64,000 nt of DNA from Asterochloris sp. CNOR1 (taxonomy: Eukaryota > Chlorophyta > Trebouxiophyceae > Trebouxiales > Trebouxiaceae): the NCBI GenBank assembly GCA_963969365.1, contig OZ017756.1, positions 1,736,001 to 1,800,000 on the forward strand, written 5' to 3'. This document shows, one piece after another, positions 7,918-53,831 of the stretch. The position numbers and the translations under genes are program-made. A model generated the notes under the pieces. That model did not search any database. It was not told the DNA's origin and saw only the letters and a list, made by a program, of their open reading frames with translations. The number at the start of each line of letters is the position of its first letter. The stretch's first letter is position 1.

Positions 7918-9288
7918 ATGACCGTTCTGGCCAGGAGCATTGGGCTGTGGAGACGCTATGAGGCAGCTCTACATGCAAAGCCCATGCGCACACAGATTGT
8001 GACCAGTGCAGTGCTATGGTGAGGCATCAACCTGCACTGCCAGTGCAGTGGTGCTGCCCATACAGTGGCGTGCTGTCCATCTGGTGGCTGATGCCATCTG
8101 CTGCTTGCCATGTGCTCACACAATGTCCCTCTCCACTGCAGGGGCATTGGCGATGTATGTGCTCAGCGCATAGATGGTACCAGGGTGTGTGAACGCGCAT
8201 GTAAGTCCCGATGTGGTGTGTGCTGCAGCCTCAGCCTGCTGAGCTCTTGCCCCACACCTGCAGCCCCACAACAAGCAAAGAACGCTGGCCACAGCTGGCT
8301 ATGGCGCCTGTGTGATCGGCCCTGTCGGGCACATCTTCTATGAGTGGCTAGACCGGGCTGTCAAGCACGTTTTCTTGCCTGCCACGCCTGGCTTTGTCGT
8401 GGCCAAGGTGCTCGGCGACGCACTGATATTTGGCCCTGTGCACGTGGCAGGCGAGCATTCGCAGGGTGTGCTGTGGGGGCTGTTGCTGTCAGGCCAGGCT
8501 TGCTTGTGGCCACACTACTTGGCAATGCCCTGACTTGTGCATGCAGCAGGTGATGCCCGCTGAGGCATGTCACGCTTTGCTGTGTGTTGTCAAGGTGCTT
8601 GAGATGCCCAGATGTTTTGGACCTTTGCATAGAGCAGCTGAGGAGCAGTCTGGGGCCTGTGCATGTGCAGCCGAGCTGTGTCGTAGCTCCAAGCTTTGTT
8701 GACACTCGTTCTGGTGAAGTGCAGGCTTCTTTGCCTGGATGATTAGAGCAGAAGGTGGCTCTTGGGAAGTAAGCTCAGACCACATGCTCCCACTGGCACC
8801 TGCTGCCTTGCTAGAAACACCAAACACTCTGCGACTAGTCGCTTGGCTGGTGGATTAGCATGTGAGCATGTCCTCTGGCCCTCACTCTGCAGGGCCCTCA
8901 GTGGCTGGTACCTCCACCGTAGATTGTTTGCTGCAGGATGTGGCCAAGCGCATAAAGCAGGACTTCATCCCAACCTTTGCAGCAGAGTGCACATACTGGC
9001 CCTTGATTCAGGGCACCAATTTCTATAGGGTCCCTGTGCAGCATCAGCTACTAGTGAGCAGCATACTATTGGCCAGCTCTACCATGATGCATTGTGTCTG
9101 CATTGGGCCTGCTGTTTCTTGGGTTCGTCACGATATGCACCAAGCATGACTGTCATCTGCAGGTGGTAAATCTAGCTTGCCTCGGCGACTCCACGTTTCT
9201 CAGCTGGGCAAAGGCGCAAGATGATTGGGTCAGCAAGCTTCCACTGCCTGAATCCTGGAAGCGGAAGCTGCCAGAGGACTGCCCCTGA
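7918..9288 (+). CDS. Mpv17/PMP22 family membrane protein
   Basis: Small four-helix proteins of peroxisomal, mitochondrial or plastid membranes thought to act as channels or stress factors. Five exons: 7918-8018, 8142-8176, 8244-8450, 8893-9053, 9163-9288, 209 residues. Family blocks: LWRRYEAALHAKPMRTQIV at the N-terminus, LW-GIGDVCAQ across intron 1, GPVGHIFYEWLDRAV, VVAKVLGDALIFGPV, YWPLIQGTNFYRVPVQHQ and VVNLACLGDSTFLSWAKAQ. The acceptor of exon 3 (8244) is the only one found giving an open in-phase join; a few residues there are uncertain. The donor after 8450 is GC. Intron 3 contains two decayed copies of the end of exon 3 (see repeats). It ends 251 bp from the end of the convergent kinase gene. 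Confidence 0.9.
8505..8660 (+). repeat. Two decayed copies of the Mpv17 exon 3 end in its intron
   Basis: Segments at about 8510-8560 and 8588-8655 align with the exon 3 end and donor at 8399-8466 (GGCCAAGGTGCTCGGCGACG and what follows, against GTCAAGGTGCTTGAGATGCC). They carry substitutions and small gaps and no longer read through. Confidence 0.6.
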
Positions 9289-9539
9289 CACAATAATGAC
9301 TGCATGAATGCATCAGTGACACTCAGTGCCTCCGATTTGCCCGGCCCCTTGCTGTCAGTCTCCTTTCCAATTATGTTTTGACACTGGCATCATGGACTTT
9401 AGCACAGTCAGAATCTCTCAGGTCTGCAAGCTTTCTCTTGTGCTTATAAACTGCTGCTGGCACTGTGAAGGGGCACACATGATGGCTCACTGCATCTTCA
9501 CTGGATATTTATTGGATGTTCAATGAGGTCACCGTGGAG

Positions 9540-12500
9540 CTATGCGCGCAGTCTCTTTCGGATAATGGCAGCCAGCTGGTGTGCATGGCAGCGCTCATAC
9601 TGCTTCTCCCAGCAGCTGCGCAGCACCTTCTCAACCAGCTTTGTAAGATTGCTGTCCACACCCCTCTCGGCGCACTGCTCCACAATGTCTGACAATGGCT
9701 TGGCGCCAGGCCCATCTCGGTTCTTGAACTGCACACCACAAGTCAGAGAAATGTGAAGTTGCAGCGGAGGTCACTGCTGGTGTCTGAAGACATTCCAGGT
9801 GGCTGCTAGTGCAGGCAAAAGGTGCGAGGTGTTAGTACTGTCATCAGCTGGTACCTTGGCATGCTCCACGGTAGCTGCGATGACAAGACACAGGCTGCCA
9901 CAGTACGCTGTCCCAGGGCGCACAGGATCATAGGATGCTCAAGGGAGGTCCAAGTGTGCAGCAGCCGGCAGGGGTGTGCAGTGAGCACTCAACGAGGGCC
10001 AGCGGAGGCCTGGCCCTAGAAGCAGCCACTGTTTCCAGTAAGAGTGCGCCAGATGGCGGAGCCTTGCAGCTCAGGCAGCCTGTGGTGGGTCCTCACCCAC
10101 TGCCTCTGGGCCTGCTGAACGGAAGCGCGGGACTCATGTCCAAACGGCATCCATCCGTCAACTGAGTACAGCATCTCAGCCAGCGCCACCCCCAGGCACC
10201 ACACATCGGCGCGGCTCAGGTCACCGGCTTTCAGGTCCCCTTCGATTGGGCTGCTGCCCGCTTCGACCTCGTCCAGGAACGTCAGCACCTCTGGGGCAGC
10301 ACACATGAAGGTGGCAGGGATGCTGAGCCGCAGCATCTCCTCTGCAGGCAGGGACAGACAGGACTACAGTTACGGTGCAATGGTGCAGCGCTCTGCACCA
10401 CCTCTGGGGCAGCGAACAGGAGGTGGTGGGTGCATGCCCAGCTGCCACATGCCCTCTGCAGGCAGGGGCACACAGGGCTGCAGTCGGACGCTCGCAAGCC
10501 AGCCTAGACTGGAAACGCTGCACCTCTGAGTGAAGACGGCAGGGGTGGCCAGCTGCCGCGGGTCCTCTGCAGGCAGGGCAAAGCATTGAGAGGGGTCAGT
10601 AACAACACCCTCTCACGATTGTATGGAACCACACAACCACCAGAGGTCCTCTGCAGGCAGGAGCTGCAGTCTCGGCTCGCAGCGGCAGACCTCTTAGCGG
10701 CAGCAGGCCTAGCGTTGCATGTCCTTTGCAGGAAGGAAAGCAGTCACAGCAAAAACAAAGCAACCAACCAAAGCCCCAGCCAGCATTGAGGCTGCAGCCA
10801 TGGCTCAGCAGATCGCCTGCAGGCCCCAGTCTTGACCTGCCTTTGCAAGACCTGGCTGCACACAGTGCAGGCTCCAACATTGCGAGGGACGTGATGCAGG
10901 CAGACTTACACACTGCCTGCTTACCTGTGTCGTCGGAGAACCACCCCTCAAAGCAGTCGATAAGGACTGGGTGGCAGCCCCCGTCATCTGGGCTGATCAG
11001 CACATTGTCCACCTTGAAGTCCACTCCATGGAACTTCCTGCGTTCGAGGGATGCCAGGGTCTGCAGGCAGCACTGGAGTGGTGGTGCAAGTGCGGCATGA
11101 GGCAAACATTGGCTACAACGACCTCCAGGGCTGCGAGGCTGGTATGCAGGCCGCAGCAGAGGGTCAAGACCACAGCACCATGGGGGGCGTCGTGCCAGCT
11201 CTCAGGCCCTGCAGCAGGCCCATGCAGCCAGGCAGAACCCCATGTCTTGTATTGTCATGCAGCATAGACAGCCTGCCGTCTGGTATCAGCAGGGAAGTGA
11301 GAAATACGGCATTGAGTCTGGAGGGCTGCAGGCTGGGCAGGGCCAGGCGCCTATGCAGGCCAGGAGGTGGTGCTTCAGCCATCAGGCTGCCCCAGCTCAG
11401 CTACAGGCACGCACCACAGGCCAGCCAGAGCCCACATGACAAGGCAGCAAGGTCACTCTGCAGGCCAAGCGCTGCTGTGCATGCCTGCCCACCTTGACCA
11501 CACACCAGATGCATTGGAAACTGCTGCAGATGGACCACCCTGCTCACTCTGGTCACCCTGTCATGAGGCTCTCTGGTGCCTGTTTACACACCCTGGCCAC
11601 ATGCAGGAGTGTGCGCAGCAACACCACTTTTGTGGCAGAGCATGCCTGAGCCTGCATGCTCATCTCGACCACACAGCAGAAGTAGCGGCAACGCCGCTCT
11701 GCAGATGGAGCCTGCCTGCTCACCTTGACCACACCGCAGCACAGCCATCCTGGTGGAACATTCTGTGAATGCCTGCTCACCTTGAATGCTGCAACATGTG
11801 CAAAACTGCTGTGCATACTGGACGTTCCTGGGCCCACCAGCGCTCGCCACATGGCAGATGGAGCACCCATGCCACCGTGCCGATGACCTCACCTGGGCCA
11901 CCTGGCAGATGATGGAGAGGCACAGCCTGAGGAAGTGCTCATAGCCATCTGGGTACCTCTCCATCCTCTGCTGCCGCACCCACTGCTGAAGCGTCTGCGT
12001 GCCCGCAACACTGCAGGTCAGCGGAGATCAGAGAGGGGTTGAGTGCTTTGTATTCAGCATATGCCTGAAACCAGCTTCTGGGTTGCCATATACACAACAG
12101 CCAGGGGCTTGCAGATTCAGGCGGCCAAGGCAAAAGAATCACTGCTCCACCGCTTTAGCTGGCAGGCTGCAGCATACAGGTGCAGGCGGACCACTGATGG
12201 CCTGTTTTAGCTGGCTGGTGGCAGCAGCACATGCAGCCAGGCGCGGCAATCCTGGGTTTTTCTTGCCGGCTGCCACCAGCAGCACGTAGCAACAGTGACA
12301 ACAGCTGGCGGCTGGGGTCCAGGCAAACCTGCGAATACATTCAGTGGCATAGCACAAGCCCCCAAACCCTACAGCGGTCACATGTATGGGGTCCAAAGAC
12401 CCAATGTGACCATCATCATGCGGTCACCTGCACAGTGCTGCACACCAGCATAGACTGCCACCCCACCTACCTCATCACGATCATGAGCCGCATCCGCTCG

Positions 12501-15500
12501 CCCGGCGAGGTCTCCTGCAGCCTGGCACAGTGCACAGCGACAGCCCCTTTCATGCCCATGTCGCGCACTGCCAGGCTGTTGCTGTGCGCGTGGGCAAGCA
12601 TCTCCACTGCCCTGGTGACCTCTGACTGAGCTTCGGAGAGGGCGGTCTCCAGGGCATCACGCAGGGTCGCCAGGATGTCCCGCTGTCTGTCCTCAAAGCG
12701 GATGGCCACCGTCTGGCCAGGGTGTCCCATCTTGTGTGCCCTGCAGCATGGTGGCAAGTTGTGTGTGTTGCACAGGGCAGAGCAGGGGCACCAGAAGGGC
12801 ACCTTGAGCCTGCTGGGGTCGGCCACAAGGCGCACCCTGCAGCGAGACAGATGCCATGGCTCTGTTGTGGCGGGAGTATGCATTGCTGGCTAGCAGCAAC
12901 AGCAGCCAGCCACCACCCAAGACAGGGTTTTTGGGGCAGGCGACCACCTTGGGTTGTCACAAGGAGTAGCCAGCAAACAGTCTCATAGCTGCCCAGCTGT
13001 GCAGCAAGGCTGAGGGTGTGTAGACACTTTCCAACCTCTGGGGAGCAGCAGTGGTGCGAGCAGGCCCCAGCTCAAGTCAGCATCTGACCTGTATGTGATG
13101 GCATGTCCCCCGCAGCCAAGCACTCCCGTCAGGTTCAGGGTGTAGTCCTCCTCGGCCGCCATCCTCTCAAACTCTTCCTTGCACTTCTCATTCTGCACTC
13201 AGGCCACAGGTCTTCAGCACGGTATGGCAGGGACAAAGCTCACATTTTGAACAGAATGGCGCGGACGACAAGGTAGTGAGCCCATGATGCCGGGTCTCCT
13301 CTGATTCATGCAGACTGCAGGTACACACGTACAGGGAATCAAGCTCTGCTCTGCACAGTGCACATGTTGCACAGCTCTAGCTGCCATGAGGCAGATCAGA
13401 AGGACAGTATGCTGCAGCTGAGCTGCTCCAGTAAGGCTGACCACTATCTCTGGGCGCTTGTTTGCCAGCTATAAGCTGCTTGGCAGCCCTTGGCAAGTGC
13501 TTTCCACGGCAGCCACCTTGCAAGGCAGCTCTCAGGGTCTGCCCTCGACGTGCCTGCAGATCAGCCCTGATGGCATCTACAGAGCGGGAGCACTTACGTG
13601 GGCCTCCCCCTCCTGCTCAATGGCCTCCAGTAGTGTGGCCAGGCAGTCAGCCAGGGTGCCAGGGGTAGGCGTGTGCCTCGCTGGCAGCAGCACGCGCTCC
13701 AGTGCGCACAGCACAGCCCTGCAGGGACACAGGGTCACATGGGCTCTCACGGCATGTGTCTTCTCATCAGCTAGGGCAGCGCCTGTTGCTGGTGCCTGCA
13801 CAAATGTGCATTCCAGACTGTCCAGGACAGGGTGCCAAGGCTTGGTGCAAAACTCGGCGCTAACAGCAGAAGACATGTGCACTTTTGAGGAGGCTGGCCT
13901 CAGCATCGCAAACAATGGCCCAAGAACACGAGATCCCCAGACATTCACCCTCACATTGCTCCACCGTTTCAAGGGCCTGACGCAGGAGGCCAGTTGGGCT
14001 GTGGACCACTCGTTCCCCTGTGGAAGGCACAGCCTCACCTGTGCTCCTCGTCATCCTCCACATCTCTGCCGCTGGCGTCATCCTCCTCATCACTGATGCC
14101 CTCACTGTCGGTGGTGTTGTTGCCGTCACCTTCCTCATCGCTGCTGTGCCCCTGCTGCAGCCTTTGAATCTCCTGCTGCCTGCACAAACCCGTAGCATTC
14201 TGGCAGCTCAGACACAATGCCCACCAGCCCCTGGTGTGGTGTCATGAGCTGCACTGTGGCTTCCAACTATGCAGGTGCGTGGAGCAGCAGGCAGGCAAGC
14301 AGGGTGGGCAGACAGAAGGGGGTCTGCGGCACCTGCCCAGTGCAAGGGGCATGACGCAGGACTCACCTTGCAGCCAAGTCTTGCTGGAGGGCTGCTTCAC
14401 GTGCATTGGCAACAGCCAGCTGCTCAGTCAACCCCTGCAGCTGCCTCCGCAGCTGGGTGTTGGCTGCCTGGGCTGCTGCATGTTGGGCTGCAACGCCTGA
14501 ATCTGTCTGGGCAGCTGCAAGCCGCTGGCGCTCCCCCTTCAGTGCCCCCTGCAGCCTGGTCACGGCAGCCTGAGTGGCTGTGTGCCGCTGGCGCTCTGCC
14601 TGCAGGTCAGCGCGTACCTGCCCCATCTCGGCCTGCGCCTGGATGACAGCAGCCCTCAGGTCTGCTGCCTGCTGGCCGCGCTCGTGCTGCAGCTCCACCT
14701 GCACCTGCTGGAGCTGCTGGTGTGCGTCCAGCAGGTCTGCCTCTGCCTGGGCAGCAGCGGTCTGAGAGGCCGCCCGCTCATGGCGCATCCTGCCAAGCTC
14801 AGCCTGGATCTGGCGCGGCTGCTGGCGATGGGCCTGCACGTCTGCCTGCGCCTGGGCAGCAGCGGCCGTTACGTCCCTGGTGCCCTGCTCCGCTGCTGCC
14901 AGTGAGCGCCGCAGCTGTGCCAGGGCCCCCTCGTGCTGCTCTTTCTGCCGCTGCAGATTCAGAGCGTGCTGGCTGTGCAGGCCCTGGATCTGCTGCGCAT
15001 GAGCTGTCACAACCTTCTGCACTGCGAGCTGGTGCTGCTCAGCTGCCTGGTCCTGCGCCTGAGCAACAGCGTTCTGCAGCTGGTGCAAGGCGCCTGCCCT
15101 CTCAGCAGCCCCGGCCTCCTGTGCCCGCTGCAGCTGCTGCCTGGTGGTGGCATGGGCAGTCTGCTCGCTGCTCAGCAGCGCCTGAGTGGCACTGTGAGCT
15201 GACTTGCTGCTGCTCAGCAGTGCTTGAGACCGCTGCCGCTCCACCCTGGTCTTCCCATGTGCAGCCTGCTCGTTGCACAGCTGCTGCTGTGTGTCCCTCA
15301 GCACAGGCCCCATGCGGGTGATCATGCTGCCAACCTTCCGGAAAGCCGACTCGAGCGTGTCGCCTGGCAGGACTGGGGGTGCTGGCAGCTGGGGGCGGCT
15401 GTACACTGTTGACTCAGGTCAGTCAGCTGCTGCTGCCTGCACCCACCACCATGTTTCTCAACAGGGCGCTGGACCAGCATAGCATGGGTGTCATCTCCCG

Positions 15501-16612
15501 CATCTGTAAACAGCACAAGCAGCAAAGGCAGGCTGCCTGATGGCAGAGATGGGCAGAGCACAGCAGCCTTGTATGGCCCCAAACAGCATGCCGTTTTACT
15601 TTGCCCAGCACGAAGTAGAAGCAGAGTCATGGCCCCTGAATTGACCAGCAAGCTCAGCCCCATTGTGCAGAGCAGAGGTTCAACAGCACACAAAGCAGGG
15701 CGTCTGACGTGGTCAGCTGGGAAGGGCGTTACAGCATGCCCCTCTCGCTGCAAGCAATGTGGGCAGAGCAGAGGGGGAAGGGGTACTCACAGCTGCAGCA
15801 GCTCTGGGCGCAGGCAGCGCAGCTCTGCCTCTTGGGTGGCCAGGGCTGTCTGGCAGGAAGCCCTGCAAATGGAGTACACCTTTCAGATGCCACTGACTGC
15901 ACCTTGCTAGCCCAGGCAAAAGCTGCCTTTTGGAGTCCCCTTGGTGAGCATGCTATTGCTGACAAGGGCATTTCAGGCAGGGTGGCATGTGGCATGGGGC
16001 CCCACTCAGCCATCCTGAGTAACAAATGTCAATTGTTGAGGCGGGCTATGACCCACTCTCATGCACCACTATGTTCTCAGCTTGGACGGCACACTCCCAC
16101 CCAGCACTGCCACTCCTTAGCAGCCCCTGCACATTGGGGCATAGCACAGGCCACCAGGCCTGCCTTCTACCTGGACAAGCACACGCGTATGTTGTTGAGG
16201 CTGTCTCTGACTCACTTCTCTGCTGTCTCATCCTCAAGTTCCCTCTCCAGGTCCTGGGTGCGCTGCCACAGAAGAGTGACCTCATTGCACAGGTCTGCAA
16301 CTTCGGCACGCTGAGCATCAAGGCGCTCCTTTAGGATGCCTCGCACTTCCTGCAAAGGAGTGCTGCCGGCATGTGAGCTCAGAGCTGCTGTCTCTGCCCA
16401 TGATCAGGAGTCAGGCGTACCTTCTTGTTGACTTTCGAGTGGACTATGAAGTCAGTGACGTCCTGCACCACGTCCTGGGCCTCCTCCACTTGGTCATAGA
16501 ATTGGTCACGCAACTCAGACGCTCTCTGCAAGCCTCTCTGCACGAAGCCAGGCAGAATCTCCATGCTGGTGTTGCTCAGAGCTGCAAACTGGTGTGTTGT
16601 TGACCACGCCAT
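9540..16612 (-). CDS. Coiled-coil protein with C-terminal atypical protein kinase domain
   Basis: Twelve exons in exact phase, 917 residues: 16612-16421, 16349-16216, 15862-15791, 15398-14367, 14179-14039, 13718-13598, 13192-13089, 12740-12471, 12010-11893, 11060-10925, 10341-10097, 9728-9540. Residues about 65-476 form a long Gln/Ala/Arg-rich coiled coil (exon 14367-15398). An acidic Ser/Asp/Glu stretch follows (about 477-523), then a kinase-like domain: glycine-loop equivalent TGVLGCGGHAITYR, TVAIRFED where the usual ATP-binding Lys is Arg, HGVDFKVDNVLI (catalytic Asp, Lys and Asn present), LIDCFEGW in place of DFG, AAPEVL, and SRADVWCLGVALAEML. The C-terminal lobe ends LVEKVLRSCW...HQLAAIIRKRL. 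Activity is doubtful: the nucleotide-binding motifs are degenerate. Family and substrate are not recognised. Exon 1 has a near-identical duplicate beyond a LINE upstream. Confidence 0.82.
10397..10665 (-). repeat. Tandem decayed copies of a kinase exon start inside its intron
   Basis: The acceptor and first about 60 bp of the exon ending at 10341 (plus-strand text CACCTCTGGGGCAGC ... CTCTGCAGGCAGGG, 10285-10352) recur with changes at 10397-10476 and 10520-10582, with a shorter remnant at 10640-10665. All lie in the intron immediately upstream in transcription order. Confidence 0.65.
11420..11800 (-). repeat. Degenerate tandem array resembling an exon-donor junction
   Basis: The motif CCTGCTCACCTTGACCACAC with flanking CAGATGGA recurs about every 55-120 bp (near 11485, 11540, 11655, 11715, 11770). 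It resembles the donor end of the exon at 11893 (CTCACCTGGGCCACCTGGCAGATG). The whole intron between 11061 and 11892 appears to be built largely of such units. Confidence 0.5.
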
Positions 16613-16656
16613 GTGGTGTTGACTGCAAGGTCAGTGATGGTCAATGCAAGATGCAG
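16343..16656 (-). repeat. Copy 1, left part, of a tandem duplication carrying kinase exon 1
   Basis: Contains the exon 2 acceptor edge, intron 1, exon 1 (16421-16612) and 44 bp of upstream sequence. It matches 18571-18884 at an offset of 2228 bp with three substitutions in the 293 bp after the first 21 bp. Those 21 bp (16343-16363) are inverted in the other copy. A LINE begins at 16657. Confidence 0.92.
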
Positions 16657-18455
16657 ACAAGGCCTCAATAATTACCGCCCCATCACAGTCATCCCGGTTC
16701 TGGCCAAGCTATTCGCCTCTGTGCTCACGCGCAGACTGGCAGACTGGACTGAGAGGAACAATCTCAGGGCGCCCACGCAAGCGGGCTTCCGGGCCAATCG
16801 CGGCACATCAGCTCAACTGAGTATCTTGAATTACATAGTCAAGAAATGCCTGTCACAGGGGAAGAAATTGTACTGCTGCTTTGTGGATTTTGAGAAAGCG
16901 TTTGACACAGTGGACAGGGAAGTGCTTTGGGCTGTCCTGGCCAACATTGGAGTGCGGGGGCAGTTCCTGAAGTGTCTGCAGAGCCTCTATGGTGTCGACT
17001 CTGCTGCAGTGAGAACTGCACAGGGCACCTCTGGGGCTTTCAGGTGCTTTCAGGGGGTACAGCAGGGGAGTCCCCTCAGCCCCCTGCTGTTCGGGCTGCT
17101 GCTTGACTGCTTGCACAAGGTCCTGAAAGCTGTGCCAGGCAATGGCGCCCCAAGCCTTGCCGATTTCTGGTTCACAGCTGCGGGCCGCGAGTGGAAGATG
17201 CAAAAGCCTGTGCCGCTGCTGCTCTACGCAGACGACCTTGCCATGCTAAGCACCAGAGCAGAGGGGCTACAGAACATGCTTGATGCAGTGCAGGTCTTTA
17301 GCAAGAAGAGGCGCCTCACAGTGAACCTGGAAAAGACTGAGGTGCTGGTCTTTGAGCTGCGGCACACCCCCTGCCGGGATTTCACATACGGCGGGAGAGT
17401 GCTCACCCGCAAGGACAGCTTCAAATATCTGGGCCTGTGGTTCCATGCCACGCAACGGGACTTCCGCCTTGCTCTGGGGAGTCTTGCAGCTTCTGCATGC
17501 AAAGCCATGCATGCCATGCGCCGCAGATGCTTCCAGCTTGGCTATGTGCACCCCCAGCGCATGTGCAACTTTTTCAATGCATTGGTGCTGCCCATCCTCA
17601 GCTATGGCTGTGAGGTGTGGTTCTGGCACCATGATGCCAGCAGCACAGTCACCAAAGTGCTGGAAGGCGTCCACCTCCAGTTCTTACGTGGCCTGCTGGG
17701 AGTGAAACGCACCACGCACCACTTGATTGCCCTGGCTGAGTTTGGCAGATACCCGCTTGCTGTGCATTGGCAAAAACAAGTTGACAAGTTCAGGCTGCGC
17801 ATCTGCAATGTCACTCGCACTGCATCTGACAACCCACTGTTCTGGGCGATGTTTGACGGCACACCCAATGTGGAAAACCTTAGGCTCCTGCGTACCCCTG
17901 CTGGATTTGCTGCCTTGCAGGCCCGCGGGAGGCCTGCCAGCGCCCCCAGCACAGAGCGCCATGGGCGGCTCTTTGCGGAGAACTCAGACAGCACCGTGGC
18001 AACGTACAAGCAGATGCGCGGCTTCAGCGCAGCGTACACCACGCAACCTTACATCCAGCAGATCAGAGGCTACAGACTGCGCAAATCAATGGCCCATATC
18101 CGCTGCAGCAGCCACAGGCTGAGAGTTGAGACAGGCCGCTACACATCAGAAGCCAGACACGAGAGGACCTGCCGCCTCTGCACATCAGCAACCGCCATAG
18201 AAGACGAGCAACACATCTTGCTGCACTGTCCCCAGCTCGATGACCTGCGCAACGCCCACAGCCACCTATTCCAGACGCCAGAACAGACTTTGACAGACCT
18301 CTTTGATGACCATTTCCCAATTTTGCTTGCTAAGTATGTGCGTGCAGCGCTGCTTATGCATCAATCAGTGCTGCTTTTGCCATGATTACATGAATTGTCA
18401 GTCCCATGCCCGTTCATTGTGGCCCCCGGACTTTGAATCCATTCTCTAAAAAAAA
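16657..18455 (+). mobile_element. 5'-truncated LINE (non-LTR retrotransposon), reverse transcriptase ORF open
   Basis: The element starts inside the reverse transcriptase at NYRPITVIPVLAKLFASVL, so the endonuclease and N-terminal region are missing, the normal outcome of incomplete target-primed reverse transcription. From there the frame is open to a TGA at 18383-18385, about 576 codons: FVDFEKAFDTVD (motif A), GVQQGSPLSPLLF (B), LLLYADDLAML (C), then a thumb region and a C-terminal zinc knuckle CRLC-x11-EDEQHILLHC. A short 3' UTR ends in A8 (18448-18455). The 4-bp sequence GCAG occurs on both sides (16653-16656 and 18456-18459), a possible short target-site duplication. The lack of internal stops points to a young insertion. 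The clade is not resolved from sequence alone. Confidence 0.92.
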
Positions 18456-18459
18456 GCAG

Positions 18460-18568
18460 TGCCTCCGCCAGGTGAAGCTTCCTCATCGAGATCTGGCCAA
18501 GGCCAAGAAAGATCAATGTCACTGCTGCGCATCGATTAGTTTGACTTCAAGGAATCCTCGTGACTTGG
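18460..18568. repeat. Copy 1, right part, of the kinase-5' tandem duplication
   Basis: 109 bp directly after the LINE, matching 18885-18993 with one substitution. In the undisturbed arrangement of copy 2 this segment follows the exon 1 upstream sequence directly, which places the LINE insertion point between 16656 and 18460 of copy 1. Confidence 0.9.
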
Positions 18569-18993
18569 CAGCACTCCTTTGCAGGAAGTGCGGCCGGCAT
18601 GTGAGCTCAGAGCTGCGGTCTCTGCCCATGATCAGGAGTCAGGCGTACCTTCTTGTTGACTTTCGAGTGGACTATGAAGTCAGTGACGTCCTGCACCACG
18701 TCCTGGGCCTCCTCCACTTGGTCATAGAATTGGTCACGCAACTCAGACGCTCTCTGCAAGCCTCTCCGCACGAAGCCAGGCAGAATCTCCATGCTGGTGT
18801 TGCTCAGAGCTGCAAACTGGTGTGTTGTTGACCACGCCATGTGGTGTTGACTGCAAGGTCAGTGATGGTCAATGCAAGATGCAGTGCCTCCGCCAGGTGA
18901 AGCTTCCTCATCGAGATCTGGCCAAGGCCAAGAAAGATCAATGTCACTGCTGCGCACCGATTAGTTTGACTTCAAGGAATCCTCGTGACTTGG
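18569..18993 (-). repeat. Copy 2 of the tandem duplication, with duplicate kinase exon 1 (18649-18840)
   Basis: Uninterrupted copy of about 425 bp. It holds a complete duplicate of the 64-codon first exon with start codon and donor site; the only coding change is Gln25 to Arg. The 21 bp that carry the exon 2 acceptor edge in copy 1 are present at 18571-18591 in inverted orientation, so no second exon 2 can follow here. Because this copy is nearest the original upstream region, the working transcript may start here and splice over copy 1 and the LINE to exon 2 at 16349. Confidence 0.85.
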
Positions 18994-23669: not shown

Positions 23670-23998
23670 GCTCCAGAAGATGTGCAACCCCCTCAAGAAA
23701 GCATGCGTTCTGCATGCATGAACACCCCACTGTATGGAGAGCATTATCAGATGTCAGTTGTCCTTTGGCCCCCATGAACTGCTCATTGAACCACAAGCAG
23801 CAAGCACTTGTAACAGGATCGCTGACAGTAAATGCAATCAGCAACCTGCAGATGCTCAATGCTTGGCGAGGGGTTATGACAGTGTTCATTTGGAAATGCC
23901 AAACGTCCATTGTTGCTACCGGTGGGGCACCTTTTATTCATTCCAGAAAAGACCAGGAGGACTGGGTTCGGGGCGGCTGCGGTCTGGGACTGAGCCTT
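23670..23998. other. Convergent 3' ends of lipid kinase and cyclin L
   Basis: 329 bp between the two stop codons. A TGTAA, the polyadenylation signal usual in green algae, lies at 23809-23813, 140 nt after the lipid kinase stop; chance occurrence cannot be excluded. Confidence 0.4.
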
Positions 23999-43700: not shown

Positions 43701-46700
43701 GCTCAGCATAATCCTCCTGCCTGGCATACTTCCTACAGGGGTTCAGGGGTGCACCAGGTGGGTTGCTGCAGCGTGCCCTGCAGGTTGTGAGGCTTGATCT
43801 GCCAAAGTCCTCCCTCTCAGCCTGCTCTCTGTCAGTGAGCAAATGGGCTTGTCAGGACATGGCGGCACTCATGGTATGGAGCCCAGCACAGCCTAGCATG
43901 CCTTGGCTCCCTGGCTGCAGGGAACACCAGGTACACTCAGCAAGCTGCCAGTCCAAGCCAGCGTGACATGCAAGCCCTGCAACTTCCTGCAAGAAAGCCT
44001 GGTGGCAGGTGGACTGAAGAGTGCCCAGCATGACAGCCCTCCATGCCCGCACTGGCAGGCTGCCCCGAAGTTGAACAGTCCCTTCATCCTCCTGCGTTGG
44101 ACTCAACTCTCCTGCCGGGCACAGCCATTGCAGACGCATGCGCCCTGCCACCGCCCAGCCCCACCTCTCAGGATGCTACCTCCACCACCACATCACTCCA
44201 GCACACTCTCTGTGCCAGCATCAAATTTCAAGACCCCAGCTCAAATCAGCTGCATCCATTTTTGCTGCTAGGGTCACCCTACTGCTTGGCCAAAGCATTG
44301 CACTACGTATGGGCCTGCCAGTACTGACAGGCAGGCCCACCTCTCAACAGCTGCCTCCTCCTCCCGCTGCTTGGCCTCAGCCTCCTGCCGGGTGCGAGCC
44401 TCCCTCTCAGAGGCCTCGCGCTCTGCAGCAGCCCGCTCCTTGGCAGTGCGCTCCTTGTCACGAGTCTTCTGCTTGAGCTTCTGGCGCCGCTCACGCTCTG
44501 CGCGCTCACGCTCAGCAATGTCCTCCTGCAGACGAGATGGGCACATTGCTGAGCATCAGTGGGCTGGAACAGGGGCATGCAGGGAATGCAGGCTGAGGCC
44601 TGTTTGCCATCAGGTCACCGCAAAGGCTGGCGCTCAGCAATATCCTTCTGCGACACAGATAGGCGCATCTTTGGGAGGTGGCCTGAAGCAGCAATGCACT
44701 TGCAGAGGACCCAGACAAGTGCCTGCCTGCCGCATGAGCAAAGCAGGACACGACGTGGGCCCGCAATGGGCCCCTGCTGCAGCACAGCCATGGTGTCAGC
44801 AAGGCGCGATTCCTATTGTATGAGGTGCAGCAATGACCTCCTGAGGAGAGGGAAAGCCGCCAAGATGCAGCAAGGGGATTGGCCATGGCAGCAGGCCTCA
44901 CGCTGGACACAGGCAGGCTTGGCAGCTTCCTCAGAGGACAGAAGCAAGTAGACAAAGCAGTCTGCTTGGCCACACCTCCAGTGAACGTGAAGTCAACATT
45001 GTTGCTGCAAAGTTGTTTTAATGAGCGCAATGCGTCGACGTCATCTCTGCAGCTGCACTCAAAAGTGCAGTGCATGCAGCGACATGTGGCCTTTGGGGCT
45101 TGATGCAGTGCAGCAACATAGCCCTTCTGCAAAGCAGCATGTGGCACAATTCATGACTCTGCTGCTCACCTCCATTTTCATGATCTCGGACTGTGCCTCA
45201 CGCGCCTTCTCATCAGCAAAGTCCATGGCCTTGCCCTCCAGGCGCTCCTGCAGCAGAGCCCGGGGCAGGCTCACTCACTAGACGGCACATCTGCTGCAGC
45301 TCATGCCAGCCAGCAGGCAGGCCCTCATGGTGCACCAAGGCACCGCTGTGCTGCACACCACAGCACAAGTCCCTTGGGGCATGCATTGCGCTGAGCCCAA
45401 TGCAGATGGGCACACGACCAGGTCAAATGCACCTCCCCCAGCATATCTGAGCAAATTCCCATAGCAGAAGTTCGCCAATGCAGGCACGACCCACCTGCAG
45501 GATGGGCAGCGCCAGCTGCACGCCAATGGCTGCTCCAGGGTCGTCGCAGGCCACATTCATCAGCTGGTTCTCCAGATGGAACAGTACTGCCCGTCCCTCC
45601 TCCAGCCGCTTCTCAGTGTCCTTCAGCTGGCCCTGGATCCACTTGAAGAACTTGATGTCGTCATCTTCGCCGTAAAGCTGGCGACGCACGTCCTGCACGG
45701 CACCATTCCACAGCTCATGTCAGCAGGAGGGACAACAGAGCAGCCTGACAGGGTACAGCAGGAGGCAGATCAGCACAAGTGGCAGAGGAGCGAATTGCCT
45801 GGCGCTGCTTCCAGCAATGCCTGACTTGGGCTTCTGCAGCACGGTGCTGGCCTGTGCAGCTCTGGGAGACAAGAGGCAATGGTGATGGCAGATGTGTTGT
45901 AAGGCTAACAGCGCTGCTACTGTCCAGCGCACATCTTCCCCGCTTCCCACTGAAGCGTGAAGAAAGCTGGGTCTCCAGGAAAGATATGGCGGTCTCTTTG
46001 AAAGCAAGTGTGGCTGCCCCAAGAGCAACCATGGCTCTCATGCAGAAGGCAGCTTACATTTTGGAAATGGGCCCTGATCTTGCTGAGCGTCTCTGAAGCG
46101 CGCGCCTGATCAGTGACCTGCCGCCCAGGCAAGCCAACCAGATCCACGTCATGCCCATTCTGCTCTGGCTCTGGACCCTTGGAGTCCTCCCCTGTCCGTG
46201 GTTCATGGTTGGGGATGCCCAGCACCTCCATGGTGTTTTCAAAGCGACTCATCAGATTGTTCACTGTCTGAGCCCACCCCTGCATTGATGACATAGGTGG
46301 TCAGCAGTCAAGACAAGCAACAACTAGTCTGCGATGTGCACAGGGGTTGCAGAGGTGCATCTGCCTGCCTCAGCAGCGCTGACTGCACCAGCGAGACTTG
46401 TACCACATAGCAGAGGGGCATTCACTGCCTGAGTAGAGTCTTCTGCAGGCAGTTCTCTCGCCGCCAGAGGACCAGTGCAGGCATAAAGCATGGGGTGCCT
46501 GCCTGCCTGAGGGAGCTGAAAAGGGCATGTGCAATGCAGGGAGCAGCACCTGCAGCTGCTTGATCTCCTGCTCTCGGTGCACCATATCGTGCTCCTGGCG
46601 CTGGCGCTGGTCGTAGATGCCCTGCAGAGCAGTACGAAGGGGTTCAGCTATGTTGCTACTCAAGCGGCGAGCATAGTGTGGGTGTTACAAAGCGACACAT

Positions 46701-49700
46701 GGCCTCGACTGCGTGCTGACAGCTGAGTGACAGTGGCTGCGAGAGGTCAGCTGTAGATGCCCTGCGTGAAGCAGTTGGTGAGCTGCCATGCTAGCTTGAC
46801 GCCGGCAATGTCAGCCTATGTCTTGCATGCTCAGCAGTGTGCTCTGACAAGCAAATACTACTATGATCGGCAGGATGCCTAAGCTGGCACCGCGATGACT
46901 GCAGGCAGATCCGCTGCCTGCACATGCGCCACCTGCTCCCTGATGGCTGTCCAGGCGCTCAATTCCAGCAGGCCCCTCTAAAGCATGCCTCAGGGTTGGC
47001 ATGACCTTTCCACAGCACAGTAGAAGCAGCCCTGCTCACTAAGCATCTACCTGCAAGTGCGCCCCGTGCTCTCTGAAGGCTGTCTGGACCTCCAGCTGCT
47101 CCTCGATGGCGGCATCTGCCAGCTGTGCACGGTGGCGCTCCATCTCTGCAGCTGTGCGGAATGTACCCTCCAGCCCGCGCGGCTGATTTTTTACATCCTC
47201 CAGGTCACGCTTCAGGCGGTCAAAGCGGGGCTCTCCCTGCACGGGTGACGCCTAGGGTTTAGTAACTTGCATATGAGCAACGGCAAACAGATGAGTCCCC
47301 TGCAGACTGCACTCGAGGCTGTCGGCGCGGCGCTTGTCATCAGTGCATTATGTGCGCATGGGCAGGGGGCATTCTGCTGAAATACCCAACAAGAGGCTTC
47401 AAGGGCTGGCACAAGCCGTTGCCCACCTGCAGCACCTCTGTCATCAGACTCTGGGCTGGCACATCTGCAGTACGTACACCAGCAACAACTTTGTGGGGAT
47501 TCAAAGCCCACAGCCATCCCAGGGCCCCAGCACAGGCCACAGTTTCAGCCTGCACGCTTGTCATCATCCCAGCACACCCCCCCCCCCCAGGAAACTAACC
47601 CTTGGCTGCCCACCTGACGCAGCTCTGTCTTCAGCTTCCTCAGCTGGCGCTCCCCCGTGATGTGATCATAGAAGAGTGCGTTGAGCTTAGCACGCGTCAG
47701 CAGGTTTTCGCGCTTCAGCATGGCCACGATGACATGCTCGGGAAGGTCTGCAGGGCCTGCTACAGCCTCTGAACCCTGCTCAGAGAGGCCATCAATGCCG
47801 GGCAGGGTCCTGGTTGGGGCAGTGGGGTTGGGCCTGCAGGGCAGTAAAAGGGGTCTAAGACATGTGTTACGACAGGTCTGCAGCGTCTGCAGCAACCTCT
47901 GCACTTTGTCTTGAGAGGCCAGCAATGCCAGGCAGGGCCCTGGGGGCGACCTCTGTGTGAGATCGGCAGCAACAGCCTGACGCAATGATGTTGGCACCCT
48001 TTGGTTCGTTGGCACTGTCAGGAGCCTTATGCTCAAGAGGGGAACCAGCCTCTGATCCTTAGGTTCCTGGAACCTACCTGGTATCATACTTCTTGCTCAG
48101 CCCCGCAGCCTCAGAGCGGCTCTGCAGCATCTCCTTCAGCAGCTCTTTGGCTTTGCGGTGGCGCTCCTCCCAGGTGTGCATGTCATTCAGTGCTGCCACC
48201 AGGTCCTCGTGCGCCTTCACTGCGCTGGGAGGAAGCGAGCCTGTAGAGAGTGTGAGACAGTCAGCTCATTGGACTGCAAGCGGTCTCAGCGTGCCAGCGG
48301 CAATGGCTGCCTAGCTACTTGTCAGCGTCGTGGTGCTGGGGGCAGTGCCTGTAGAGGCTATGGGACTATCAGAAATCTTGAGTGAGGAGAGGCACGGGTG
48401 TTCATGTCAGGGTCGACCATGTTTGGCCTTGCCCAGCTGTCAGCCTCCATTCAGACGTGAAGGCCGCCGCACCGGAATGTTTGGCTGCTGCAGTCAGTGG
48501 ATTGTGAACAGGCACGCAGGAAGGTGGCAGCCCTCTAGCAAGCCAAGTGCTATGCTGGAGGAGACAATCAGAGCATGCACGAGCTAGGCTGGTGCTCCAA
48601 ATGCCCCTGAAAAGTCCAACGCTGGCTGGTGCTCAGCAGCAATTCACAGCCAAGCTTGAGTGACAAGGTCAAAGACCACTCACCAAGGCAGCGCTTGGCA
48701 CCATCACGAGCCTTCTCAGCCGTGGACACAATGCTGCCAAAGACGTACTCCAGGCTGAGGCCCATGTTGTGAGGGTCCTCCCCAGCCTTTGCCTTGCGGG
48801 GATGCCCATCCTCGCCCAGCAGGCGCTCCTACAAGAGCAACATTTGGACATCTAAATGCAGGCTTGAGAAAGGAAGCCCCTTGGTGTGACTAGATGCAGC
48901 AGGTAAATGGGGCCAGTGCAGGGGCATGCCAGGCATATCACCTGGAGGTGCTGCAGCCACTTCGGGTTGACCTGCAGGCGACTCCCGTCCTCATTCAGGG
49001 TGAACAGGTCAACATCGCCGATGCCCTCCTCCTCTTCCTGCAGCAATGGGCAAGCAGTCAAACGGGCTGCATGTAGTTCGAGTTTGCACGACATTGATTC
49101 TAAAGCATGCATTGCCCTAAATGCTGCACAGCAAGCAGCTGACCTGCCAGCATCAAAGTAGTACTTGGAGTGGCGGTATTTTGCTGAGGCGGCTGGGCAG
49201 CCCCTGCATATTGTCCAGGCCCGCACACGTGTGCAGCTCAGCTGATCAGCATCTCGGCTACAAAACCCGGAGCTATCTGTACTCATTTCAGCTGCCCCTC
49301 CCCTCTGCCTGACAGCAGGGGAAAGACAAAGTTTGACGCACGACCTTTTTGGGCCCTGACTTGGCAAAGTGTGCATCCTGGGAGGCAAGATCTGGAATGG
49401 CAGATGCCTCCCCTATGCCGCCTGGCATGATGACATGGCGGCAGTGCCAGCTCCAGTCACCTCTTCCTGTGCCCTCTTGGAGATCATGGTGAGTTGCCAC
49501 TGTCGTGCAGCCCCACCCACCTCTTCCTCTGCCTCCTTTGGCTCTGCACGCGTCTTAGTGGTCAGGCTGTCCACCTTTTCGGTCAGCCACTCCGCGATGC
49601 GCGCGATCTCAGACACTGGCAGCTTCTCGATGTCCTCATACAGCAGCTCCATGCGGGAGGTCTCGCGCATGTGCTCGGGGAGCATCTCGCAGATGAAGGC

Positions 49701-52700
49701 TGTCACAGGCTCCTGGATGGTGCGTACCCTGCAGCAAAGGGCACAAAGAAGGGTCAAGAAGGGAGCTCTGCCAGCAGTATAATGGGCAGCCCAGCATGAC
49801 GCCTGCAAATGGTGTGCGCCCTGCAAGACCAGCAGCAGGCCTGTGGCAAGTGTTTAGGCAGCATGTTGGAAATGAAGGGCTGTCTTGAGTTCCTTGCCAG
49901 TGTGCACCTTGCAGCTAGGTCAAGACAGGAGGTCAACATTCAGCCACAACAGCGCAGGCCATAGCGGCTTTTGCTGGCCTGGACGCTGCTGCCCTGCAGC
50001 TTGGTCAGCATTTGGAGTTGCAGGTTGGCGCATCTGACTGCTGGCTTATGGTCTCTGCTAAGGGAGTGCCCCATGGGTGGGCTAGTCATGCAGGCAGAGC
50101 ATATCTCAGACCAGCAAGTAGAGATGTTGCCTGCACATATGCATGTGCATCCTCTACAGGTGACAGCATGCCAAAGCCAGCAATGCATAGCCCAACCACA
50201 CAGCAGCGCTGGACAGTCAAAAGTCAAGGACGATATAGACGGCAGCCAGGCAGCTCAGAAGCTGCTTGGGAGACTTCACAGCACTGCTGCCCACACTAAA
50301 GCAAGCACTAGGAAACTGAGAAGGGGCCCCACAGGTACTTGTGCTAATGATCCCGAAGAGCTCTGGCAGTATTTTCTGTCCATCTTGGCAAGGGGGAAAG
50401 CAATCATGAGCAGATGTTGACTTACAGGTACTCATGCTCATTGTCCAGGGCCTTCATGATGATTTGAATCAGCTCCAGGTTGCTGTCGCGCACAGGATCC
50501 TGCAGCTGCTCTGGACTGCCACGCTCACGGGGGCGCACTCGCCGCGTGTTCTGTTGGGCCACCTGCTGCTCCTGCACCTGGCGATTGAAGTCGTGCACGC
50601 GCTTCAGCAGCTCCGTCCTGCAATCAATCGCTGAGCACCTTGAGCTGTGCTGCACTTGTGAAAGTGGCAGAGGAGTTGTGCATGTGCTCCAGCAGCTCAG
50701 CAGATTGACATTTGCTCAGAAGGGCTTTCACAGGTTCTGACTTTGTGCACGCGCTTCAGCAGCTTAGTCCTGCAGGCACAAGGTTGAGCAGACCATGAGC
50801 ATCTGCAACGCTGACATCATACAACAATGCGGGAAATCATGTGCTAGCATTGCTAGCAGCTTGCACAACCACCCTGGCAGTCCACATGCACCGGTGGCAC
50901 ATGCAGCACGGACATCACAGCAAGCAGGCACTTAGCATTGCAGCCTCCAGGCTGGACTCGAGTGAAGGCTTGCAGCCATGTGGTCCCCTGTGTGCACTGG
51001 ACTTGCATGCAAAGGTGCAGTGCCTGCCCTCTTGGCTACTAGACCCCTGCTGGCCCCCCTTTAGCAACAGAATAGTGAGCCATGTCAAGTGCAGCGGGCT
51101 TACATGCGCAGGCGCAGCGCCTGCTCTGCTGGCTTTTCAATGGGGCGCCCTTCATCGTGAGGCAGAAGGCGGCGGAGGTTCTCATCAATGAAGTCCTCCT
51201 CGACGCACTGCCTGCGACACAATCAAACACAGATGTTGGGCAGGCTACCTACAGGAGGGGCATTACAGAGGAGGACGGGCCAGGGATTGCGCATCGCTGG
51301 GACATTCTGTGCCTGCAGAAGTTGGAGGAGCTGACTGCATTCTGCAAAACAGGTAAGTCTTCTTGCACACTTCGCCTGCTGCATCAAGCTGGGCGCACAG
51401 ACTGGAGACTTGCTCTGATGAGGGCTGCAGTTGGATCTGTGCAGCACGCCCAAGCAAGTGACATCAAATTAATGTAGACAGTGGTTGCAATCTACCCACC
51501 ACCTCCATTCAGGCAGCCATGAGAAGTGGCTCCAAGAGTGGCAGCCACAACCGCTTGGGTCTGAATGCACATGCAGGGGAAAATCTGTCTGTGCACACCA
51601 GAAGTCGATGTCAGCACAACAGCAAAAGTTCATTGCATGCAGGGCAATTGCAGCTGGCACTTACCTGAGCTCCTCAGCATTGAGCAAGGAGGACCTGTGG
51701 ACCAGCCAGCCAAGAATCTGCAACTCTTTGAGCAGCATACATCTTGAGCAGCATACAAAGGTGCCGTCACTCACTTGAACTCCTCAGCAGTGAGGAACTC
51801 CTTGGCAGCTGGCGGCCACATCCACAGCTTCCAGGTCTTGTTATTCTGAAGGCGCTGAATGCCCACAGTGACCAGCTCGTCCACTGTCGGGTCATAGGTG
51901 TAGTGCAGCAGGGTCTCCCCCTCTGCTAGCTGGGCCGCCTGCTCAGCGTCCATCTCGGCTGCAGCAGCGCGTATCATGCATTGAGGGAAGTCGCAGTGGC
52001 AGGCGCCCAGCCACAAACAGACGTAGCCATCTCAGGTGGAGCCCCAATCCAGGAGCTGCATTTCAGCCACACGCCAAGTATGCGCCACCAGCACAACTGT
52101 TACAAGCTGCAGTGTTAGGCAGACAGACTCATGCCTGCACAGGCAGCCCCCAACCACCCAGAGCTGAGCCAGGCATCCAGGCCCAAATGCTGCGAGCCAG
52201 CCACACATTGTGCATGCACAACCAGCCCTACACAGCACCCACAACCGGAGCCCAGCTACCCTGCAACCAGCCCAAGGCCTGCAGGTTGCTGCTTTCGATG
52301 CTTGAGTTGGGATGCCCAAAACAGGCGACGGGCGCATTGCACCAGACGAGATCCCAAGACCAAAAACATCACACCATGGGGCAGCCTGCTCACCTTCCTC
52401 ATCACGCTGCTTGGCCCTGCTTCAGCTGCCAGGTCTACAAGCTGGTTCAGAGGACTACCCACTGATGTGAGCCAGCAGGCTTGTGAGGTTACCCTGTTAA
52501 AGCAGTCTCTCAGAGAAGCAAGGTGAGGGGGCAGCCTGCCCAGCTTGTTCTGCTGCCTGGCGCCCCCTCTGAGCTGTCTGCTGCTTGAACTTGTCCAGAG
52601 CTCTGCCCCACGGCTGCCGAAAGGCCAGGGAGATGAGAAGCAGCCTGCCCACCCTGCCCACCTTGCTCTTTGCGCTGCCGGGCGCCCACTTCAGCAGCCC

Positions 52701-53831
52701 GCTGCTTGAGCTCAGTCAGAGGGATGCTGAGCAGGTCAAGGCGCTTCTCCTGGGGGACAGTCTCCCAGAAGGGCTTGACCTTGGCCACACGGTCCTGGGG
52801 TAGCACCTGGGGCTCCACAAAGTCATGCTGCAGAGTGAGCGGCCATTGTCAGTTGTACTGCAGCCCTAGTGAGCAAAATGCAGCCACTGCAGCTGTGGGC
52901 CTCTGTGCTGGGGGCATCTGGGACTCTGTGAGTCTTGCTGCACTTCAATTGGATGATGTCAGTCGTGCTGCAGCCCACATGAGCGGTACAGTGCCATGCC
53001 GCAGCTGTATCCAATTCAGCTTGGGGCGGCACCTAGGCTCGCATGCATCGTGCTGCACCATAGGGGTTTGCCTCTGCTTTGCTTGTCTTCTGCACCCCAG
53101 ACGAAGGACATTGCAGCACAGCTTGATAGCACAAGACTGTGCCGCAGCATGGATTGACAGCATCACTGCCCTTGCTGGCTTGCATATCTGCTTGGCTGTT
53201 GATGGTCTTATCAGCAAAAGCAGTCAATCCAGCCCATCCGCCTGCATGCCAGTGGTGCATCCCACAGAGCCAACTGAGCTTATAGCATATGGCGAAAGAG
53301 GCCGGCACAGTTCTCGAATGAGTTGCTGCTGCACATGTCATCCAGCTTCTCAACCCAGTGCAACAGTAGTCCCGAAACGCACAAAGAGCATTTTACTCCG
53401 CAGCCACGCTAAAGAGCTGGCTGCTTTTTGTAGCCAGCAACAGCTGTGCAAAGTCGTGCAGCAGCCAAGCTGCATTCCCAGACTATGCAGCCACCAGCTC
53501 TGAAGGTCTTTGATAGCAGCAGCAGCTGCTTGGCAGGCCTGACCCACGAGATGTCTGTGGTGGGGCCCAACAACTCAGGCGCAACAGGACGGCATGCTGA
53601 GAACTGAGCTAACCTGGGGACCCTAGCCTGGGCATTATATGACACTGGTCTTGCTGCAGTCAAAGTGGCAGTGTCAGGAGCAGGCATCCTGGCATTGCTC
53701 ACCGTGATCTGGGGCTTTTTGGGCTCTTTTGGCTTGCCATCCTTGTCCTTGCCACCTTTGGACTTGCTTTTGCTGCCGGCTTTGGCTTTCTTGGGCAGGC
53801 CCATGCTGGAGAGTAGCAGCTTCTCAGACAA
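31769..53831 (-). CDS. Giant UCH/USP-related protein with coiled coils and a PAM2-like motif
   Basis: Thirty-four exons join in phase to about 2361 residues. Exon starts, in transcription order: 53831, 52827, 51958, (51694, 30 nt), 51211, 50617, 49728, (49377, 33 nt), 49037, 48828, 48240, 47833, 47236, 46621, 46279, 45692, 45247, 44525, 43541, 42781, 42134, 41674, 41198, 39795, 38767, 37781, 36748, 36451, 35775, 34962, 34251, 33632, 32844, 32062. The N-terminus is Lys-rich (MSEKLLLSSMGLPKKAKAGS), then conserved-looking blocks PFWETVPQEKRLDLLSIPL and KTWKLWMWPPAAKEFLTAEE, charged coiled coils (residues about 780-930), a Gln/Pro/His-rich region (1087-1455), a PAM2-like LNATAKPFVPGG (about 1584) and a C-terminal USP fold: Cys box GQYNCFLNVIIQALWHLPSF (about 1900) and His box ICYFGHHYQAYAL (about 2309). 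The Cys and His are present. It resembles plant UCH-related proteins; the N-terminal family assignment is tentative. One donor is GC (after 40093). Confidence 0.85.
35829..36135 (-). repeat. Three echoes of a UCH-related exon in the intron before it
   Basis: The exon 35619-35775 starts GASSKDLAVVKALWIVFSAF. Decayed copies at about 35829-35910, 35945-36030 and 36058-36130 still translate in part, for example RASSKAPVVVKVLWSIFIAL and AAMKAVCIVASTIIF. The period is about 115 bp. All copies are in the same orientation and lie between this exon and the previous one (36354). Confidence 0.85.
37400..38020 (-). repeat. Echoes around the UCH-related exon 37627-37781
   Basis: Acceptor-side copies at about 37860-37910 and 37965-38000 resemble 37759-37800 (GGTGCTCCTGCAGAGTGCAGGCCAG type). 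A donor-side copy at about 37515-37575 encodes SEAPASQDEAGG against the true SEAPASQGEAG. Confidence 0.6.
43133..43248 (-). repeat. Echoes of the donor edge of the UCH-related exon 43367-43541
   Basis: The plus-strand text CCCCACCTCGTCAGTCTCACACTCCT (43140-43167) and CCCGCCTTGTTAATCTCAGACACC (43218-43241) match CCCCACCTTGTCAGTCTCAGACTCCT at the true donor edge (43361-43386). They lie in the following intron, which spans 42782-43366. Confidence 0.7.
44620..44675 (-). repeat. Echo of the acceptor edge of the UCH-related exon 44341-44525
   Basis: GCGCTCAGCAATATCCTTCTGCGACACAGAT-like text resembles CACGCTCAGCAATGTCCTCCTGCAGACGAGAT at 44505-44537, about 125 bp further upstream in transcription order. 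Confidence 0.6.
50737..50775 (-). repeat. Echo of the acceptor edge of the UCH-related exon 50426-50617
   Basis: GTGCACGCGCTTCAGCAGCTTAGTCCTGCAGG repeats GTGCACGCGCTTCAGCAGCTCCGTCCTGCAAT (50593-50624) with four changes, 148 bp upstream in transcription order. Confidence 0.75.
52530..53060 (-). repeat. Echoes on both sides of UCH-related exon 2
   Basis: The donor edge of exon 52662-52827 (52640-52722) is echoed at 52530-52605: both contain CAGCCTGCCCA, then a TTGTTCTGCTGCCTGGCGCC or TTGCTCTTTGCGCTGCCGGGCGCC stretch, then CTGCTTGAACT or CTGCTTGAGCT. The acceptor edge (52796-52834) is echoed at 53021-53058 and more weakly at 52911-52945. Confidence 0.75.

Follow-up and report, generated by a model that had tools for sequence, protein, structure and literature searches.

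Copies of exon edges in the introns of Asterochloris sp. CNOR1 and their probable origin in short tandem duplication

Do the introns of a green alga keep copies of the exons beside them and, if so, how did the copies arise? The question is raised by a window of 64,000 nucleotides from Asterochloris sp. CNOR1 (contig C11, positions 1736001-1800000; "the window" hereafter means this whole stretch), in which a sequence-only reading described "exon echoes", that is, diverged copies of an exon edge within the adjoining intron, in genes labelled Mpv17, kinase, lipid kinase, cyclin L and UCH-related, and took them as a sign that introns grow by repeated tandem duplication across exon-intron junctions. 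Our tests confirm that exon-edge copies in adjoining introns are real.

The material was DNA from this one genome (56.4 Mb, 21 contigs; GC near 58%), with predicted introns: the window, a further 200 kb of contig C1 and 50 kb of C5 that served as a replicate, in sum 314 kb or 0.56% of the genome. Its size, GC content and splice signals are in keeping with a green alga. Bases 1-24000 of the window were inspected by eye and the remainder by script. Gene models were our own, from a small hidden Markov model (HMM) self-trained on the window and C1, which settled at 590 introns, a donor consensus CAG/GTGAGC, an acceptor consensus CTGCAG/G and about 13 exons per gene; the median intron is 209 bp (625 predicted introns). 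Adjacent genes are sometimes fused in these models and some tiny exons are artefactual. Echoes with splice sites also fool the gene finder: copies in the kinase and cyclin L genes were predicted as exons, and the kinase and Mpv17 introns, truncated in this way, fell outside the general tests. Low-complexity repeats were filtered from the gene-blind repeat scan, the offset and shift tests, the C5 replicate, and the age and coverage analyses. An initial blastn search gave more direct than inverted matches, but listed no direct match below 100 bp, so that its nearest bin is unreliable.

When 60-bp exon edges in the window and C1 were compared unmasked with their own introns (570 of 623 introns; introns of at least 60 bp, exons of at least 40 bp), 29 of 959 matched at a score of at least 18, while no inverted match was found; shuffles gave an expectation of 0.11 and other introns one of 0.05. 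With the splice motif masked and the intron flank made part of the probe (introns of at least 90 bp, exon at least 30 bp, target at least 40 bp), 56 of 882 edges in the same regions matched at a score of at least 16, against one inverted match and 2.5 expected from other introns, and the C5 replicate gave 13 of 160 edges, none inverted, with 0.5 expected. Over the three contigs taken together, a diverged direct copy was found for 69 of 1042 edges, in 65 of 580 introns (one inverted match; about 3 expected from other introns), the echo-bearing introns being 20 of 116 in the window, 32 of 370 on C1 and 13 of 94 on C5. The median echo lies 119 bp from its source edge, and 34 of the 56 masked echoes in the window and C1 cross the junction.

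For the named genes, seven of ten probes outscored every one of 1000 dinucleotide shuffles of the intron concerned, while their inverted scores fell within the shuffle range, and these seven cover all five genes in which the copies had been described. The three exon-only probes that did not stand out against 1000 shuffles were the lipid kinase acceptor at 23086 (p=0.33), the far edge of cyclin L (p=0.32) and the UCH-related edge at 52827 (p=0.05); with intron flank added, the last scores 20. Echoes occur on both sides of introns, as had been claimed: in the lipid kinase gene one copies a donor edge (21854-21899) and another an acceptor edge (22134-22176). The two outcomes that the sequence-only reading had named as decisive against it, no excess over dinucleotide-matched shuffles or equal similarity to unrelated exons, are not what we found, the expectations from shuffles and from other introns being far below the observed counts. 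Its statement that each copy includes the splice site held in part: when the site was masked in the search, 7 of the 16 acceptor echoes that cross the junction proved to have AG, and 5 of the 18 such donor echoes GT, the remainder lacking the site.

What kind of duplication is this? A gene-blind scan of the window and C1 at offsets of 15-500 bp found 193 direct against 4 inverted repeats at a score of at least 17, and 111 against none at a score of at least 20 (inverted distances being approximate), which bears out the claim that copies keep the orientation of their source and lie within a few hundred bp of it. Offsets of 60-200 bp account for 113 of the 193 direct repeats. In the youngest repeats the two arms abut head to tail, examples being one that crosses a junction (offset 79), one at an exon edge (offset 78) and others at offsets of 49, 38, 27 and 22; this set was defined by identity of at least 0.85 and an arm of at least 0.6 of the offset, a length filter that itself favours abutment, and other high-identity repeats span less of their offset. 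The few young copies have an extra terminal match of about 0-10 bp, which does not separate repair from other origins. Many echo alignments pass from exon to intron and keep the genomic order, which argues that DNA, and not mRNA, was copied. Neither of the two echo regions searched against the genome (kinase and lipid kinase) has dispersed copies of the sort expected of introner-type elements.

The reading frame gives a further indication. Where both copies lie in one exon, all 33 offsets in the window and C1 are divisible by three, as are 9 of the 10 on C5, whereas this holds for 18 of 60 intron-intron offsets and 22 of 69 echo offsets. Offsets are therefore in frame only inside exons, which argues that selection filters a general process of short tandem duplication and that splicing hides the events that cross junctions; the same type of event is filtered where protein is altered and unfiltered where splicing can remove the copy. 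Among the 57 of 69 echoes with at least 15 exon columns, a gap shifts the frame in 30, an in-frame stop occurs in 6, and 32 show at least one of the two. Mismatches by codon position 1, 2 and 3 (0.23, 0.20, 0.28) retain only weak periodicity, and 6 of 706 echo codons are stops, a rather low number.

We consider it likely that a general process of short tandem duplication, filtered by selection, and with its junction-crossing copies hidden by splicing, explains the echoes. Head-to-tail duplications, mostly of some 25-300 bp, would arise in introns, exons and junctions without great differences in rate, and inside one exon nearly all survivors would be multiples of three. A duplication across an acceptor or donor would leave a complete copy beside the rest of the exon; splicing would use the outer copy and remove the other, which, being nearly neutral, would stay in the intron and decay to an echo, and the intron would be longer by one unit. 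Their source may be staggered breaks mended by error-prone repair, and not slippage during replication. The observations underlying this explanation are the direct orientation, the range of offsets, the head-to-tail young repeats, the in-frame filter, the junction crossing, the decay and the two regions without dispersed copies. Of the growth process proposed by the sequence-only reading, tandem duplication of DNA, frequent crossing of junctions and decay of the spare copy in the intron thus stand, but a process targeted to junctions is not supported.

Several points weigh against this explanation. All the gene models are our own predictions. Junction-spanning alignments exceed those obtained with shifted annotation (one arm spanning, 45 vs. 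34.4, sd 5.3; intron-junction class, 58 vs. 31.5), and donors lie above intron interiors in a symmetric test with masked probes (28/510 vs. 58/1674), so that some junction preference is possible. Offsets between two intron copies are shorter, with a median of 89, than those between an intron and an exon copy, with a median of 133 (Kolmogorov-Smirnov (KS) p=0.0006), which is unexpected for a uniform process without detection effects; the gap may reflect detection or a real difference. Finally, there are too few young copies for a constant rate: among pieces of at least 20 bp, 6 lie below K 0.05 and 133 of 205 at 0.15-0.35.

Breaks or stalling at splice junctions, for example, might duplicate sequence preferentially there, and a junction-directed mechanism was favoured by the shift test. 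However, in that test the two arms share the splice motif and the models sometimes treat echoes as exons. The symmetric test masked 11 bp in every probe, searched 280 bp on each side and counted matches of at least 18; the rates were 3.5% for intron interiors, 5.5% for donors, 3.0% for acceptors (15/507), 3.3% for exon interiors (24/729) and 5 of 226 for intergenic probes, with controls, in the same order, of 0, 0, 0, 1, 0 inverted and 0, 1, 1, 2, 0 at other places. Acceptors and exon interiors are thus not above intron interiors, and selection restrains one copy at exon edges, which alone eases detection there. Given these similar rates, junction targeting was dropped to a rival, which we regard as unlikely: junctions are not clearly special, local duplication rates being similar across gene parts and somewhat higher at donors. 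At a score of at least 14, the upstream intron contains a match to the start of the exon for 9 of 123 exons of at least 180 bp (expected 0.9; inverted 2) and to the middle for 1 of 123 (expected 1.3), a pattern that short duplication units must produce. Edges compared with the intron at the opposite end of their own exon gave 6 and 5 of 301 (1.3 and 0.9 expected), slightly high, and introns two positions off 1 and 4 of 222 (1.9 and 1.8 expected).

Do echoes instead record the birth of introns? Gain by tandem duplication of AGGT-containing exon sequence, the model to which the sequence-only reading had linked the echoes, is suggested by AG/GT at 261 of 412 donors and 82 of 412 acceptors, and by an ungapped in-register test on introns with both exons of at least 40 bp that was weakly positive (7/388 vs. 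1.7 expected, identity at least 0.42). This hint was gone in a gapped, masked test for the signature of gain, namely donor resembling acceptor at an offset equal to the intron length: in 412 introns of at least 110 bp, 2 cases were found vs. 1.1 expected at a score of at least 13, and none vs. 0.15 at a score of at least 16, although old gains would escape detection. With its signature at chance, gain was rejected as the reading and is very unlikely to explain the echoes; the record is read as growth of existing introns. Echo rate rises with intron length: the classes from 60-150 bp to more than 600 bp give 2/206, 4/230, 8/238, 6/98 and 4/42 edges (407 introns, both exons of at least 40 bp, search within 300 bp), of which only the upper part is comparable, as the shortest classes give less sequence to search and the longest are few.

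Echoes might also be working alternative or decoy exons. The kinase and cyclin L copies keep sites and frames well enough to be predicted as exons, one C1 intron has a third copy of two homologous adjacent exons, and leave-block-out identity, mostly 0.5-0.7 near junctions, rises slightly at acceptors (0.66). However, donors show no clear rise, and the frameshifting gaps, the minority of retained AG and GT sites and the weak codon periodicity described above indicate that echoes as a class do not keep frame and splice sites, single exceptions being possible; function was rejected on the identity profile and is quite improbable. In tandem exon duplication, including that behind mutually exclusive exons, a whole or partial exon is duplicated next to the original, whereas the copies here are mostly decayed and consist of an exon edge together with adjoining intron. 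Mobile elements, or chance similarity, might be considered as well, since the sequence is TGCAG-rich and other green algae have introners (PMC3488318). Nevertheless, the masked tests exceed the inverted, shuffled and other-intron controls, and the two searched regions lack dispersed copies in a search that skips very common words; we consider this origin extremely unlikely.

Short tandem duplication thus being the preferred explanation, how much sequence has it contributed, and at what tempo? Of the bases in introns, 5.8% lie in local duplicates, as do 7.1% in exons and 2.2% in intergenic sequence; at distant offsets the figures are 0.17-0.27% for introns and 0.4-0.75% for exons. The local coverage is a lower bound, as detection fails at high divergence (in simulation, 0.91 at a true distance of 0.3-0.4, 0.33 at 0.5-0.6 and zero above 0.8). 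A constant rate gave a flat simulated age profile to a distance of about 0.3, whereas observed pieces of at least 30 bp grow commoner with age up to about 0.35, with the caveats that old events fragment into several pieces and that young repeats are possibly collapsed in the assembly. A constant rate is disfavoured by this shortage of young copies. The shortage, seen over the window and the C1 and C5 sequence, hints at a more active past period or at assembly collapse.

The features are collected in Table 1. Pfam matches above cut-offs in eight protein pieces were MsrA, FKBP, DAGK_cat, YegS_C, CycT2-like_C, TspO, PTH2, Fcf2 and UCH, with Pkinase and Cyclin_N below cut-offs; Mpv17 is the label of the sequence-only reading, and the protein piece tested has no Pfam match. 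The "UCH-related" gene had been left unspecified, and exon 52662-52827 was tested because the range given for the echoes ended at 53060; the gene with the Pfam UCH match, from 31769 on the minus strand, lies to the left of it and has echoes of its own. Two overlapping probes were used for the kinase.

Table 1. Exon echoes, their sources and in-frame duplications in the window (window coordinates)
Feature	Position	Strand	Basis
Mpv17-labelled exon (8264-8450), 3' part, source of two echoes	8379-8450	+	gene model and probe
Mpv17 echo of exon 8379-8426, offset 107	8486-8533	+	score 20
Mpv17 second echo, of exon 8380-8442	8568-8629	+	score 24, shuffle maximum 16
Kinase acceptor junction (exon 10097-10341) and intron flank, source of array of ~112-bp units	10283-10370	-	model, repeats, probe
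Kinase first echo, offset 113, partly predicted as exon	10396-10484	-	score 44, shuffle maximum 21
Kinase second echo, offset 225 (two units)	10531-10578	-	score 26
Kinase weaker third echo, resembling 10445-10469 and 10561-10577	10640-10664	-	score 17
In-frame duplication within single exon, offset 105; contrast to intron cases	14691-14865	-	score 36
Second in-frame intra-exon duplication, offset 105	15120-15298	-	score 34
Lipid kinase exon, source of donor-side echo	21572-21721	+	model; Pfam DAGK_cat in protein
Lipid kinase donor-side echo, offset 178	21854-21899	+	score 22, shuffle maximum 14
Lipid kinase acceptor-side echo, junction-spanning, 18-bp alignment gap	22077-22176	+	part 22134-22176 scores 31
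Lipid kinase exon, source of acceptor-side echo	22331-22504	+	model
Lipid kinase further repeat of acceptor junction 23086, offset 200	22864-22895	+	score 18
Lipid kinase repeat of acceptor junction, exon 23086-23261, offset 111 (22957-22996 resembles 23068-23107)	22957-22996	+	score 18; exon-only probe not significant
Cyclin L edge echo (exon 28407-28547), predicted as exon	28732-28813	-	28732-28787 scores 36, shuffle maximum 18
Cyclin L second repeat, offset 394	28888-28949	-	score 22
Donor-side echo spanning junction at 33410	33234-33332	-	score 31
Pfam-UCH gene echo of exon 33973-34251, offset 98	34298-34330	-	score 23
Pfam-UCH gene second echo of exon 33973-34251, offset 258	34456-34495	-	score 24
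Acceptor-side echo spanning junction at 37781	37849-37904	-	score 30
Donor-side echo spanning junction at 44340	44044-44148	-	score 30
Echo of exon edge at 47833, offset 130	47896-47943	-	score 28; wider alignment 40
Echo of exon 52665-52721 (tested as UCH-related)	52543-52600	-	score 24, shuffle maximum 19
Acceptor-side echo spanning junction at 52827	52905-52984	-	score 25; exon-only probe p=0.05

Other repeats were seen beside these. Long exons have in-frame tandem repeats at 40672-40761 (offsets 24 and 48 bp) and 14408-15298 (offsets including 102 and 105 bp), and on C1 an intron copy (L021, 2515-2771) resembles both the preceding and the following exon and is likely a tandem exon duplication. 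A lipid kinase intron contains a 35-nt, nearly pure G run (22677-22711), and an 81-bp minisatellite of about three copies lies outside predicted genes (30371-30698). In 16350-18993, a reverse-transcriptase-like reading frame (about 16637-18337) is flanked by two nearly identical stretches: by eye, gene-start sequence near 16350-16660 is found again near 18585-18890, and 18451-18568 is repeated at 18876-18993 with 97% identity.

How does this record compare with known systems? Repair of staggered breaks yields small tandem duplications (PMC8355091), which resemble ours in being head-to-tail, tens to hundreds of bp long and found in all kinds of sequence; the record here is instead old, diverged and genic, visible because one copy is an exon, and may likewise stem from repair. 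Intron gain by tandem duplication (reviewed in PMC3443670) likewise touches exon sequence and splice sites and is masked by splicing, whereas here existing introns lengthen. In a potato RdRp gene, an intron-exon structure was duplicated in tandem (PMC4974935); the duplication spans a junction and includes splice signals as ours do, but it is one recent case in which a new intron was made, whereas echoes occupy 65 of 580 introns and are mostly decayed. The same paper mentions an 83-bp duplication inside an intron. Novel intron positions in Drosophila arose by tandem duplication of coding sequence with splice-like sites (PMC2891723), in contrast to our case at new positions and in few genes. Introner elements of Micromonas also place repeated sequence in green-algal introns, but are dispersed (PMC3488318), while the two echo regions searched here are local only. 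Short tandem duplications, and a junction-crossing one in potato, are therefore already known, and what is newer is the dense record of intron growth; a literature search of titles and abstract openings, with most subscription journals outside its scope, found no genome-wide record of exon-edge copies in introns.

Chlamydomonas and its relatives have long introns, with medians of 198-343 bp and none of the usual peak at short lengths; the comparison that describes them names no cause and says only that the mechanism driving length is likely ancient (PMC8226300). The mean intron of Coccomyxa is 240 bp (PMC3446292). We suggest tentatively, as possible rather than probable, that intron DNA in this lineage comes mainly from short tandem duplication, that introns ratchet upward in length because splicing hides junction-crossing duplications from selection, and that the alignable copies are the youngest part of the record. 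In practical terms, echoes with splice sites mislead gene finders, as in the kinase and cyclin L genes here. The genome also offers a natural experiment, in which the same duplications are held to multiples of three in exons and are unfiltered where splicing can hide them. A mutational cause with a readable record would make the question of intron length testable from sequence and, if true, could account for the long introns of green algae without recourse to transposons or function.

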